DNA from: Ensifer oleiphilus
GTDB taxonomy: Bacteria; Pseudomonadota; Alphaproteobacteria; Rhizobiales; Rhizobiaceae
Assembly (NCBI RefSeq): GCF_013371465.1
Contig: NZ_JABWDU010000001.1
Location: forward strand, 1,169,794 to 1,233,793
Direction of reading: 5' to 3'
DNA: 64,000 bases
The notes under the pieces are model-generated. The model was given only the letters and a program-made list of their open reading frames with translations, was not told the origin of the DNA and did no database searches. This document shows, piece after piece, positions 33,012 to 36,508 of this stretch. How positions within the stretch are numbered: the stretch's first letter is position 1; each line of letters begins with the position of its first letter. Both the position numbers and the translations under genes were made by a program.

Positions 33012-33260
33012 TCCGTGGTCGTCCTCGATGCCTCTATCGGATCTGCAGGCACTATGGGCTGGGCGCATTTAAGGGAGTCTGAAGACAGCGCAGCATTGGC
33101 CGAATCCGCGCGGTATGGTTGCCGAAATCCCACCGAAGGCAGGGCTGACGCAACCGATCGGAGCAGGGGTGCTGAAACTTGCTATTTTCGTTCATGTTTA
33201 TAGTTGACGGAGACAGTCAGCAATTATATGCCGCCTTGCTAAATCGGGCGGGAGGCTCGA

Positions 33261-35915
33261 ATGCAGAGTGGCGGTTCGACAATGCCCCCTTCGTTCATGG
33301 CGGATCTGGCGAGATGGGGCGAGCGTGCCGCTCTGGTCCTTCCCGGCCAGCGGCTCGTGAGCTACCGCGAACTGCATGAGAGGGTTGAGCGTCAGGCTGC
33401 GTTGTTTCCGCGCATCCGCTCGCTGGTAACGCTTGAATCTGAGCTTTCCGAACACCCGATCATTGCCTATCTGGCGGCGCTCAGGGCCGGACATGTGGTT
33501 GCCATGCAGGCACCGCGCGGTGCCGGTGCTGCAGCCTGGGCCGACATGTTCGAGCCGGACTGCGCCTATCGCCGCATCGACGGCCGCTGGCGAACGGAAC
33601 ATCTTTGCGGCAGCGATGAGCCCCTTCATCCGGATCTCAGCGTCCTGCTGTCGACCTCGGGCAGTACAGGTTGCTGCAAGGCGGTGCGGCTCTCCACCGC
33701 CAATATTGCGGCCAATGCCCGCTCGATCGCCGAATATCTCGACCTTGCTGCAGATGATCGAGGCTGCCTGATCCTGCCGCTGCACTACTCCTACGGCCTC
33801 TCCGTGCTGAATGCCCATCTGAGCGTCGGCGCCAGCCTCTACATTCCCAACGGCTCGATCCTTGACCGGGGGTTCCTCGACGGTCTTGCCGCCAGCGGCT
33901 GTACCAATCTTTCCGGCGTGCCTTATTCCTATGAACTTCTGGAAAAGGTCGGGTTTCGTGATCGTGCGTTCCCGCGATTGCGCTTCATGACGGTTGCCGG
34001 CGGACGTATGGCGCCCGAGCGCGTCCGTGCCTACGACGAGCATCTTCGCGCCCAGGGCGCCAGCCTGTTCGTCATGTACGGGCAGACGGAAGCGACGGCC
34101 CGCATCGCCTATGTGCCTCCGTCTCGACTTGCGGGCAACGAAGACCGGATCGGCATCGCCATTCCCGCAGGCGCCCTGTCGATCGAGGATGAAGAGGGGC
34201 GACCGATTACCGGTGCAGGTGTCTCAGGCGAACTCGTCTATCGCGGCCCCAATGTGATGATGGGTTATGCCTCGTCGCGCCAGGACCTGACCCGCGGCGC
34301 TGACGTCACGGAACTGCATACGGGCGACCTGGCGGTTCGCGAGGCAGATGGTCTTTTCCGTATCGTTGGGCGCATGAAACGCATGTCGAAGATTGCCGGC
34401 CTGCGCATCGGCCACGATGCCCTCGAGCAGGCTCTGGAGCGGCGCGGCATCGTGGCGGCGATCGTCGGCGATGACGAAGGGCTGCATGCATTTTTCCAGA
34501 GCGAGGGCAAACCCGAGGATGTGCGACGCCTTCTCGTCGCGGCGAGCGGCCTGACACTAGCCCATATCAGGGCCACGCATGTGCCGGATATCCCGAGATT
34601 GCCGTCTGGCAAGGTCGACTACACCGCATTGAACCTGGCCGCAAAGCAGGCGGTCGCGGCAGGCGACGGTGATCGCCAAGGCATCGAGAGCCTGTTCCGG
34701 CAGGTGTTCTATCCCGCGAGAGTGAAGTCTGAGGACAGTTTCCTCTCGCTTGGCGGGGATTCGCTACGTTTCGTGCAGCTCTCGATCGGTCTCGAAAAAG
34801 CGCTCGGCCAAGCGCCGGAAATGTGGGAGGCCATGCCGATCGCAACGCTCGCCGCGCTGGAAAGGCGAGAGACGGCCACCACGCGGATTGGAATGGATCT
34901 TATCATCCGCGCCTTGGCGATTTTGCTCGTCGTTGTTCATCACGAGACCCTGTGGCCGTTGCCCGGCGGGTCGGCTGCCATGGTCATCCTTGCCGGCTTC
35001 AGCCTTGCCCGGTTTCAGATGGGACCGCTTCTGGCCGGTGACGGCCTTGCCATTCTGCGGCCGCTCGTACAGATTCTTGTGCCCTATTATCTCATCGTCG
35101 GCGTCTATGCTGCCGTTTGGGGTGAGGTTCCCTGGGCGTCCGTTTTTCTCGTCGGGAATTTCGGATTTGCCGATCCAGAGACCCGAGGGATGGTGCCCTA
35201 CCTTTACTGGTTCATCGAAGCCTATTGCCAGATGATGCTGGTCTTCGTGGCGCTGTTTGCAATCCCGCGCTTGCGGCGGATTGCAGCTTTGCAACCCTTT
35301 GCGGCGGGCATGCTTTTGCTCGGTGTGGCGCTGGCCGCCCGGCTGGCATTGCCGCTCTTGTGGCCAATCGGCAACCGCCAGATCTTTACCCTGCCATGGA
35401 TCTTCTATCTCGCGGTAATCGGGTGGTGCGCGGCGATCGCCGAAACGCATCTGCAGCGACTGCTGCTGGTGTCGGCGGGGACGGGTGCGTTCCTGTTCTT
35501 TGGTCTCTACGAAGGTGTGTGGATTGGTACGAAGATCAAATACCTGCTGTTGATCGCCGTGCTCGTCGCGTTGGTCTATGCGCCCCGCGTCAACGTGCCG
35601 CGCTGGGCCGCACAGCTTGTGCTGCCGCTATCGGCTGCCGGTTTCCATATCTACATCCTGCATCGTTTCGTGCCGGAACTGTTGCTGGCGCCGCTGCAGG
35701 GACAGCTTCCGACAGTCCTGTTCTCCACGATGTCGATCGCAGGCGGCATCGCGCTTGGCCTTGCCGCATGGCTGCTGCAAGGCCGGCTGCTCAAGACGGC
35801 TGCGAGCGGGAGCCTGCCGCTCGAACGTCTGCGGCCGCTCGCGCTGGGAGCCGCGTTATCCCGCCCACTTCTCGCCTTCGGCCCGCAGAAAGAACGCGAG
35901 ATCCAGCACAACTGA
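33261..35915 (+). CDS. Adenylation - carrier - membrane acyltransferase fusion protein
   Basis: One 884-residue protein with three modules. (1) An AMP-forming adenylation domain: ATP loop LSTSGSTGCCKA (130-141), YGQTEAT (273-279), TGD (354-356), GRMKRMSKIAGLRI (370-383) and the catalytic Lys451 in LPSGKVDY. (2) A carrier domain with the phosphopantetheine serine Ser501 in LGGDSLRF. (3) From about residue 544, a multi-helix region starting GMDLIIRALAILLVVVHHE, with HH at 560-561 and ILAGFSLARFQ, as in acyltransferase-3 proteins. It likely activates a carboxylic or amino acid, loads it on its own carrier and passes it to a membrane acceptor. Substrate and acceptor are unknown. GGGAGG precedes the ATG. 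The 3' end overlaps the convergent DinB gene by 60 bases. Confidence 0.85.
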   Translation: MQSGGSTMPPSFMADLARWGERAALVLPGQRLVSYRELHERVERQAALFPRIRSLVTLESELSEHPIIAYLAALRAGHVVAMQAPRGAGAAAWADMFEPDCAYRRIDGRWRTEHLCGSDEPLHPDLSVLLSTSGSTGCCKAVRLSTANIAANARSIAEYLDLAADDRGCLILPLHYSYGLSVLNAHLSVGASLYIPNGSILDRGFLDGLAASGCTNLSGVPYSYELLEKVGFRDRAFPRLRFMTVAGGRMAPERVRAYDEHLRAQGASLFVMYGQTEATARIAYVPPSRLAGNEDRIGIAIPAGALSIEDEEGRPITGAGVSGELVYRGPNVMMGYASSRQDLTRGADVTELHTGDLAVREADGLFRIVGRMKRMSKIAGLRIGHDALEQALERRGIVAAIVGDDEGLHAFFQSEGKPEDVRRLLVAASGLTLAHIRATHVPDIPRLPSGKVDYTALNLAAKQAVAAGDGDRQGIESLFRQVFYPARVKSEDSFLSLGGDSLRFVQLSIGLEKALGQAPEMWEAMPIATLAALERRETATTRIGMDLIIRALAILLVVVHHETLWPLPGGSAAMVILAGFSLARFQMGPLLAGDGLAILRPLVQILVPYYLIVGVYAAVWGEVPWASVFLVGNFGFADPETRGMVPYLYWFIEAYCQMMLVFVALFAIPRLRRIAALQPFAAGMLLLGVALAARLALPLLWPIGNRQIFTLPWIFYLAVIGWCAAIAETHLQRLLLVSAGTGAFLFFGLYEGVWIGTKIKYLLLIAVLVALVYAPRVNVPRWAAQLVLPLSAAGFHIYILHRFVPELLLAPLQGQLPTVLFSTMSIAGGIALGLAAWLLQGRLLKTAASGSLPLERLRPLALGAALSRPLLAFGPQKEREIQHN

Positions 35916-36368
35916 CGGGCGGCCGAGTGCCGTCAGCGTCGCATGCACCTGGCCGCGATGGTGAGCCTGGTGGTTGAAGACATGGGCAAGCGTCGGTCCG
36001 AGCGTTTGCGTGATGCTGACGGGATTGCTCAGGGGCGTGTAGGTGAACTTGGCCACGAGCCGCGCCTCATCCAGCCCGTCGATCCAGGCGATCATGCGTG
36101 CATCCTCCCGCTCGCGCGCACTGGCAAGCTCGGCGAAGTCGTCATGGAGTGTTGCGTCCAGCACGGTCGGGGCGTCGCCTTCGCCGGTGAAACGCTTCAT
36201 CCAGATCCGGTCGGCGGCGAGGATATGATTGAGCGTCGCAATTACCGAACCGAAGAAGGCGCCTGTGCTCTGCCGCAGCTCGCTGTCGGACAGTTCTGCC
36301 GCCGCCGCGTAGAGCCGACCGTTGGCCCAGTTGTTGTAGTCGGCGAACATGCGAAAATGATCGAGCAT
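35856..36368 (-). CDS. DinB-family protein
   Basis: A 170-residue four-helix metal-binding protein from the ATG at 36368 (MLDHFRMFADYNNWANGRL), preceded by AAGGAGAAAC. The family histidines are visible in TLNHILAADRIW and FNHQAHHRGQVH. DinB relatives include thiol-dependent S-transferases, but this one has no assignable substrate. Its last 60 bases overlap the convergent acyltransferase gene. An upstream in-frame ATG at 36428 would add 20 unlikely residues. Confidence 0.88.
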   Translation of the reverse strand: MLDHFRMFADYNNWANGRLYAAAAELSDSELRQSTGAFFGSVIATLNHILAADRIWMKRFTGEGDAPTVLDATLHDDFAELASAREREDARMIAWIDGLDEARLVAKFTYTPLSNPVSITQTLGPTLAHVFNHQAHHRGQVHATLTALGRPSVVLDLAFFLRAEGEKWAG

Positions 36369-36508
36369 CTGTTTCTCCTTTTCAGTGGCAAGGCTAACGC
36401 AGATCCGCATTCCTGTGGCGAATGCCACCCATGAAATTTAATGATTTGATCGTGCGGCCTGACTGGCATCCAATGGAACGAGCCAATTCATTCTCGCCGG
36501 GAGATCAC

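Follow-up and report, generated by a model that had tools for sequence, protein, structure and literature searches.

What does a bacterium do with a protein that carries, on a single chain, an adenylation domain, a carrier domain and a membrane part resembling the acyltransferase-3 (AT3) family? The question is raised by an open reading frame (ORF) of 884 codons, confirmed at 33261-35915 on the + strand of a 64,000-nucleotide stretch of Ensifer oleiphilus DNA (contig NZ_JABWDU010000001.1), called here the window. A first-pass annotation made from the letters of the window had described the fusion and proposed an envelope-type transfer of an amino or carboxylic acid. The three-domain architecture is borne out by Pfam, by relatives and by motifs. 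The annotation had noticed neither iron control nor a linkage to ferric importers, and it is because of the operators and this linkage that our reading shifts from envelope tailoring in general to iron acquisition. On balance we lean towards an iron-starvation-induced single-chain machine that transfers acyl groups across the inner membrane in the service of ferric iron acquisition. Articles are cited by PMC number for the portions available to us.

Domains and catalytic residues

The features of the gene are as follows, residues being numbered from the second Met (33282).

33282..35915 (ORF from 33261), + strand: fusion gene A-PCP-AT3, probable orthologue of SMc00592 of S. meliloti
33282..34661, + strand: adenylation (ANL) domain, residues 1-460 (Pfam PF00501, invariant motifs)
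34101..34103, + strand: R274, pocket position 331 (GrsA numbering, by eye), a conserved Arg
34611-34613, + strand: catalytic K444 of the adenylation domain, invariant in alignment A1
34677..34877, + strand: carrier (PCP) domain (Pfam PF00550)
34761-34763, + strand: phosphopantetheine serine S494 in the motif LGGDSL, invariant in A1
34893..35771, + strand: AT3 membrane acyltransferase domain with 10 hydrophobic segments (Pfam, R-X10-H, hydropathy)
34908-34910 and 34941-34943, + strand: AT3 catalytic pair R543 and H554, invariant in A1

The second ATG is probably the conserved start of the fusion: alignment with relatives begins there, and the annotation of S. meliloti Ak57 places its start 24 bases upstream of the ATG matching 33282. 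The gene is under purifying selection, with dN/dS of 0.11-0.14 over its whole length against four same-genus orthologues and of 0.04-0.15 for the separate domains.

The window protein matches AMP-binding (PF00501) at 4.1e-41 with 141.5 bits (cut-off 29.9), and the P-loop, YGxTE, TGD and catalytic lysine of the ANL family are all present in invariant motifs. Its carrier matches PP-binding (PF00550) at 2.7e-4, with 21.6 bits against a cut-off of 20.8, and G492-D493-S494-L495 does not vary across A1, a 15-row alignment. K444, S494, R543, H554 and the motifs of a working adenylation domain are likewise invariant in A1; the first two are the residues that the first-pass annotation had correctly singled out as Lys451 and Ser501. 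At E<=0.01, all 15 members match AMP-binding, 13 PP-binding and 9 Acyl_transf_3.

For Acyl_transf_3 (PF01757) the window protein itself scores 6e-4 and 19.4 bits, under the cut-off of 31. Five relatives of the same architecture were scanned for AT3, the sixth (L098, perhaps a fusion) being cut by a contig end; numbers with an L denote single loci or records. Three of the five exceed the cut-off (L063 with 51.8 bits, L094 with 114, L092 with 75.4), L076 stays under it at 24.1, and in L068 AT3 goes unmatched at E 0.01. At that threshold PP-binding, in turn, goes unmatched in L063, L092 and L094. All 35 fusions aligned, and all six stand-alone AT3 proteins aligned with them, have the R-X10-H pair of AT3 helix 1, and alignment-averaged hydropathy gives 10 hydrophobic segments in the C-terminal part, the number of helices expected of AT3. 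We call the membrane part AT3 because of the relatives' scores, the R-X10-H pair and the 10 segments; the earlier reading was not refuted by its own test, a membrane part without a match to any acyltransferase family.

Iron-regulator operators and ferric importers

Upstream of the gene lies an element that probably ties it to iron.

33205..33219, + strand: RirA operator (IRO box), TGA-N9-TCA, over a TTGAC -35-like hexamer (consensus from PMC6386902 and PMC8822346)

RirA represses iron genes via TGA-N9-TCA (PMC6386902), and this sequence was present in 5/10 chromatin immunoprecipitation peaks (PMC8822346). Among fusion promoters of Rhizobiaceae/Phyllobacteriaceae-type loci the box is found in 26/30, against 14/193 other genes; a stricter form, TTGAC-N8-TCA, is found in 24/30 against 2/193. 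One genus supplies 19 of the 30, and the lineages chosen are those presumed on general grounds to carry RirA. Within that genus, Sinorhizobium/Ensifer, 18/19 promoters carry the box (17 scored, plus L021 by alignment), the exception being L012; L021 is counted among the four misses of the 30 and does show the box in the promoter alignment. Outside the genus the count is 9/11. Later records added the box in 5/6 Rhizobiales (L169-L172, L175) and in a 'Roseateles' record (L174); L173 and Leisingera L176 had none. L174 (NZ_CP084753.1) is marked UNVERIFIED_ORG and bears a rhizobial-type fusion as well as the IRO box; it is probably rhizobial. L169 (CP090106.1), 3.7 Mb and labelled pSymB, has chromosomal-looking ndk, uvrC and pgsA and may be a mislabelled chromosome.

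In the Ensifer genome itself, four of nine TonB-receptor genes have an IRO box upstream. This is a weak control because background alone predicts about two hits. A stricter IRO-like pattern gave 14 hits in the genome, of which 12 lie inside candidate reading frames and two in promoters, namely those of the fusion and of a TonB receptor.

We take SMc00592 to be the probable orthologue in S. meliloti 1021, by counting genes from the Ak57 region with the locus tags of ndk, pgsA and uvrC. SMc00592 appears as 'Hypothetical, transmembrane protein' in Table 2 of a microarray study (PMC2848241), a list of 36 genes of which the authors count up to 17 as iron genes. Its five nearest profiles among the other 35, compared over the four tabulated values without the significance marks, which were not visible, are those of SMb21431, exbD, hmuT, hmuV and exbB. 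In that array SMc00592 follows the iron-uptake genes, which is indirect evidence for RirA-dependent and iron-dependent expression of the candidate orthologue. Two further hypothetical genes of the same table, SMc00402 and SMc01514, track the iron genes much like SMc00592. SMc00592 goes unmentioned in the text of three other papers, on a predation transcriptome, an Hfq proteome and biofilms.

In Actinobacteria most fusion or operon promoters carry the operator of an unrelated iron regulator. We used the 19-bp DtxR/IdeR consensus TTAGGTTAG(G/C)CTAACCTAA (PMC1382209, PMC8464063). With at most four mismatches it is found in 21/28 fusion or operon promoters and 0/299 other genes, and with at most five in 25/28 and 2/299; five scrambled palindromes at <=4 mismatches gave none in either set. 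A more permissive consensus gave 24/28 against 0/299 at <=3 mismatches. The 28 loci include L093, whose contig stops within the gene, and the control set of 299 holds some wrong genes, since these were called by a heuristic based on GC content at third codon positions (GC3).

The neighbours of the actinobacterial fusions point the same way. A homologue of the binding protein of a ferric ATP-binding cassette (ABC) importer, found with the L076 protein as query, adjoins the fusion in 18/28 loci, accompanied by permease and ATPase except at contig ends; in ten loci the importer genes lie on the same strand upstream of the fusion. The L076 binding protein, the only actinobacterial one compared with solved structures, matches the ferric proteins SfuA/YfuA at about 1e-128. 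NCBIfam models for 2-aminoethylphosphonate, polyamine, molybdate and other transporters match the three L076 importer proteins, all below cut-off. Genes annotated 'iron ABC transporter' are adjacent in two of three actinobacterial plasmid records (Rhodococcus opacus B4 and Mycolicibacterium chubuense NBB4); the third, from Pseudarthrobacter, has no adjacent iron importer. The plasmids of the first two, pROB01 (L177) and pMYCCH.01 (L178), are typed as mobilizable and bear both the fusion and the ferric importer.

Iron control combined with an adenylation-carrier module is typical of siderophore assembly, and the loaded carrier might feed an intracellular siderophore pathway, the membrane part only anchoring the protein or releasing the product. 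In Streptomyces ISL-100 a hybrid nonribosomal peptide synthetase (NRPS) gene with KR, condensation, adenylation, carrier and thioesterase domains (L080:13377-18368, - strand) does lie on the opposite strand some 2.8 kb past the fusion, with a ferric importer also nearby. This is the sole such case that we noticed, not all neighbours being annotated. Nine loci with a DtxR box (L070, L074, L083, L085, L087-L090, L097) yielded no importer, and no synthetase caught our attention there. Moreover, the AT3 part looks catalytic, since R-X10-H is kept throughout the 35 fusions. We judge the siderophore-pathway alternative unlikely.

The ferric importers bear also on an iron-sparing remodelling, in which a membrane lipid would be acylated under iron limitation, leaving the envelope less dependent on iron enzymes or better protected against oxidative or cationic stress. 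Operators of iron regulators before the fusion fit this idea, as does the action of AT3 proteins at membrane surfaces. Against it stands the operon that fusion and ferric importers share in Actinobacteria, a group with envelopes very unlike the rhizobial ones; we hold such remodelling to be quite improbable.

In the Proteobacteria the linkage to an importer recurs in one of eight plasmid records. On a plasmid of Pararhizobium A13 the fusion, with an IRO box in its promoter, and the genes of an Fe3+ ABC importer are transcribed away from each other. The A13 binding protein is of a different ferric class (1y9u, 1e-141) and shares 27% identity with the actinobacterial one. Iron importers suspected in Phyllobacterium L173 and Rhizobium L175 were rejected, their binding proteins resembling sugar or polyamine binders. 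At the Leisingera caerulea locus (L176:14288-16346), genes for a zinc importer and for a transcriptional repressor are found some 5 kb away from the fusion.

Several observations weigh against a role in iron acquisition. An iron importer is adjacent in only one of eight proteobacterial plasmid records, whose gene tables are incomplete, and most rhizobial loci seen have no iron gene adjoining the fusion. The IRO box is absent from seven Hyphomicrobiales of other families, outside the 30 (L022, L028, L030-L034), and from the sphingomonad, Caulobacter, Rhodobacterales and gammaproteobacterial fusions; a Fur-box scan of 18 fusions outside the RirA and DtxR lineages produced no convincing site. Among the Actinobacteria, L062 lacks a good DtxR box and L096 has a weak one, and of nine loci without AT3, searched over a wider span, seven stand at >=8 mismatches, L127 at 5 and L098 at 4. 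The IRO box has a background of 46 per 97,198 bases, from which about two hits are expected in the TonB-upstream sequence, and the 14 hits of the stricter pattern compare with six for the same pattern reversed. The assignment of SMc00592, a probable orthologue, leans on gene counting from locus tags. The helix-3 RXXR of AT3 is absent from the window protein, so that its reaction could be altered or lost. Finally, relatives of the adenylation domain without AT3 (L095, L101, L107, L108) lie near LuxC, LuxE, SDR or NeuB genes in a Pfam scan, and such nonulosonate-type clusters point to glycan acylation and not to iron chemistry.

This last observation agrees with an envelope tailoring of the Dlt or Alm kind, in which lipopolysaccharide, exopolysaccharide or a lipid-linked sugar would be acylated and iron limitation would be merely the signal. 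AT3 proteins of known function acylate extracytoplasmic glycans (PMC9558356). A stand-alone second AT3 gene follows the fusion directly in Rhizorhapis (L063:10568-12811) and Sphingobium (L094:10587-11702), and in Rhizorhapis a GT2-GtrA glycosyltransferase comes next; these sphingomonad loci have no iron box, and their neighbours hint at a glycan or lipid-linked sugar as the acceptor there. General coat modification does not predict, however, that the commonest shared neighbour in Actinobacteria should be a ferric ABC importer, nor that a ferric importer of another class should adjoin a rhizobial fusion in Pararhizobium A13. Tailoring seems to us a possible explanation, and a rather doubtful one.

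Substrate, acyl donor and proposed mechanism

Which acid would be transferred? GrsA binds the alpha-amino group through Asp235; at the matching position all 64 fusions scored have Ser (38) or Cys (26), and none has the Asp expected of a domain that activates alpha-amino acids. The 64 were drawn from 73 fusions, eight of the nine not scored being of the same genus, and the GrsA register was aligned by eye. Because Ser or Cys replaces Asp235, a carboxylic acid other than an alpha-amino acid is the favoured substrate; of the 'amino or carboxylic acid' first suggested, the amino part is weakened. R274 is Arg in 64/64 fusions and in 37/37 scored rows without AT3, which suggests that the acid bears a second polar or acidic group. 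We name no acid since the nearest solved relatives of the adenylation domain are diverse: NRPS domains, oxalate-CoA (coenzyme A) ligase, o-succinylbenzoate-CoA ligase and malonyl-CoA synthetase. A lead to malic acid on flagellin was dropped, no paper having been found.

As to the donor, we infer that the fused carrier, and not CoA, supplies the acyl group. The RXXR of helix 3, which is essential in OafA (PMC7448272), may serve CoA binding; it is matched in 7/35 fusions against 4/6 stand-alone AT3 proteins. As proof of a carrier donor, its loss is only suggestive.

The proposed sequence of events would run as follows. Under iron scarcity the fusion promoter would be released by its regulator, which is RirA in rhizobia and DtxR/IdeR in Actinobacteria. 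The cytosolic adenylation domain would then activate a small non-alpha-amino carboxylic acid, probably one with a second polar or acidic group facing R274, and load it on the phosphopantetheine arm of the fusion's own carrier domain. The N-terminus of AT3 proteins is expected to be cytosolic, and the arm could enter the AT3 pore from that side, where the R543/H554 pair would pass the acyl group on to an outer-face acceptor. What results would be either a ligand for iron or a surface group aiding delivery of Fe3+ to the ferric ABC importers. In this scheme the domains, catalytic residues, operators and neighbours are supported by sequence; release by the regulators, the class of acid, the carrier as donor, the direction of transfer, the acceptor and the role as iron ligand are what we infer.

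An iron ligand on the outer face, made for the ferric importers, is the simplest reading because importers are neighbours in Actinobacteria and one adjoins the Pararhizobium A13 fusion. A bolder version, which we entertain only tentatively, is a one-protein factory for an exported metallophore: a carboxylic acid, perhaps of the hydroxy or dicarboxylic kind and gripped by R274, would cross the AT3 pore on the phosphopantetheine arm of the enzyme itself, without CoA, and become an outer-face iron ligand that gives Fe3+ to importers of the Fbp/Sfu type. Were this true, it would constitute a new class of iron acquisition common to rhizobia and Actinobacteria. Sfu/Fbp importers take up ferric iron, and the fusion enzyme is a candidate maker of the ligand that delivers it to them in soil Actinobacteria. 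Operators of two unrelated iron regulators, together with pairing to ferric importers of two classes, place a so far uncharacterised gene, in S. meliloti probably SMc00592, in a concrete physiological context. A fused, self-loading carrier would also supply a defined donor, so that acyl transfer across a membrane could be tested with a single purified protein.

Distribution and comparison with known systems

The fusion gene looks monocistronic. A GGDEF gene lies upstream and is divergent; the 3' end is overlapped by an antisense gene.

35859-36371, - strand: DinB-family gene, antisense, overlapping the 3' end of the fusion (Pfam, ORF)

The annotation of S. meliloti Ak57 shows this overlap too. 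When neighbours were clustered at 39 of 45 fusion loci, those spreading beyond one genus were parts of ABC transporters and a GGDEF protein. With these flanks, self-sufficiency of the protein, which the first-pass annotation had raised, is probable. Reported stop codons do not support a split gene, a reading that was rejected: the stops seen sit in the C-terminal extension, and one in L018 lies near the extreme start of the fusion. In Mesorhizobium LSJC280B00 (L060:7914-10560) the fusion is broken into a 663-aa and a 237-aa ORF that overlap, possibly through a frameshift or an assembly error.

Full-length fusions occur in 16/16 genomes of the genus, in 13 of 397 genomes of an order sample and, over the stricter threshold used there, in four of 385 of a class sample, the Ensifer genome being included in each count. 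A scan of named genomes confirmed 570 loci; the best 80 of these include fusions from Rhizobiales, Rhodobacterales, Sphingomonadales, Caulobacterales, an Oceanospirillaceae metagenome-assembled genome and many Actinobacteria. Viral contigs searched for the fusion gave no match. In a tree of the adenylation domain (60 chosen rows) the rhizobial-type group forms one clade with support 100/98. A second group, weakly supported at 60/68, gathers the 24 actinobacterial rows, the place of L091 being doubtful, and the two branches lie far apart.

Narrow full-text searches, mostly outside subscription journals, returned no description of the fusion or of its link to iron, and no paper giving Sfu/Fbp importers an enzyme partner like it. 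Plasmid records with the gene annotated name it mostly 'AMP-binding protein'.

The nearest known counterparts of the membrane part are AT3 proteins such as OafA/OafB and OatA, likewise 10-segment membrane acyltransferases with an R-X10-H pair. R14 and H25 of OafB are essential, and in a model of that protein acetyl-CoA enters a pore and so brings its acetyl group close to the residues that are probably catalytic, on the outer side (PMC9833829). The portions of the AT3 papers available to us describe an acyl-CoA donor, whereas the donor in the window fusion is probably its own carrier; the fusion partners that they name are SGNH, racemase and NRF domains, not adenylation domains. The helix-3 motif essential in OafA is a further difference.

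ExoH presumably also belongs with the AT3 proteins. Aas combines an AMP-forming ligase and an acyltransferase on a single chain; the ligase part of the fusion matches its models (PRK08633, PRK06814) far under cut-off, and the fusion differs in type of acyltransferase, in having its own carrier domain and in regulation. Its best NCBIfam match, TIGR03098 (exosortase-A-associated ligase), is also far under cut-off. The ligases of NeuB/LuxC/LuxE clusters that were aligned are 35-40% identical to the window domain and have the same pocket, R274 included; they have no AT3 fusion, and no iron context was noticed in those examined. From the side of iron uptake, the comparison is with the SfuABC/FbpABC ferric importers that stand beside the fusion in those 18 actinobacterial loci and in Pararhizobium A13.

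In the Dlt (DltA, DltC, DltB) and Alm (AlmE, AlmF, AlmG) systems an acid is activated, loaded on a carrier and transferred outside the cytoplasm, and the fusion shares this logic. It differs in having everything on one chain, with AT3 in place of an MBOAT or lipid A acyltransferase. This contrast had already been drawn from the letters of the window and holds in our scan, in which neither an MBOAT (DltB) nor a lipid A acyltransferase (AlmG) Pfam model matched the fusion. The fusion is set apart, too, by a pocket without the amino-binding Asp and by operators for iron regulators.

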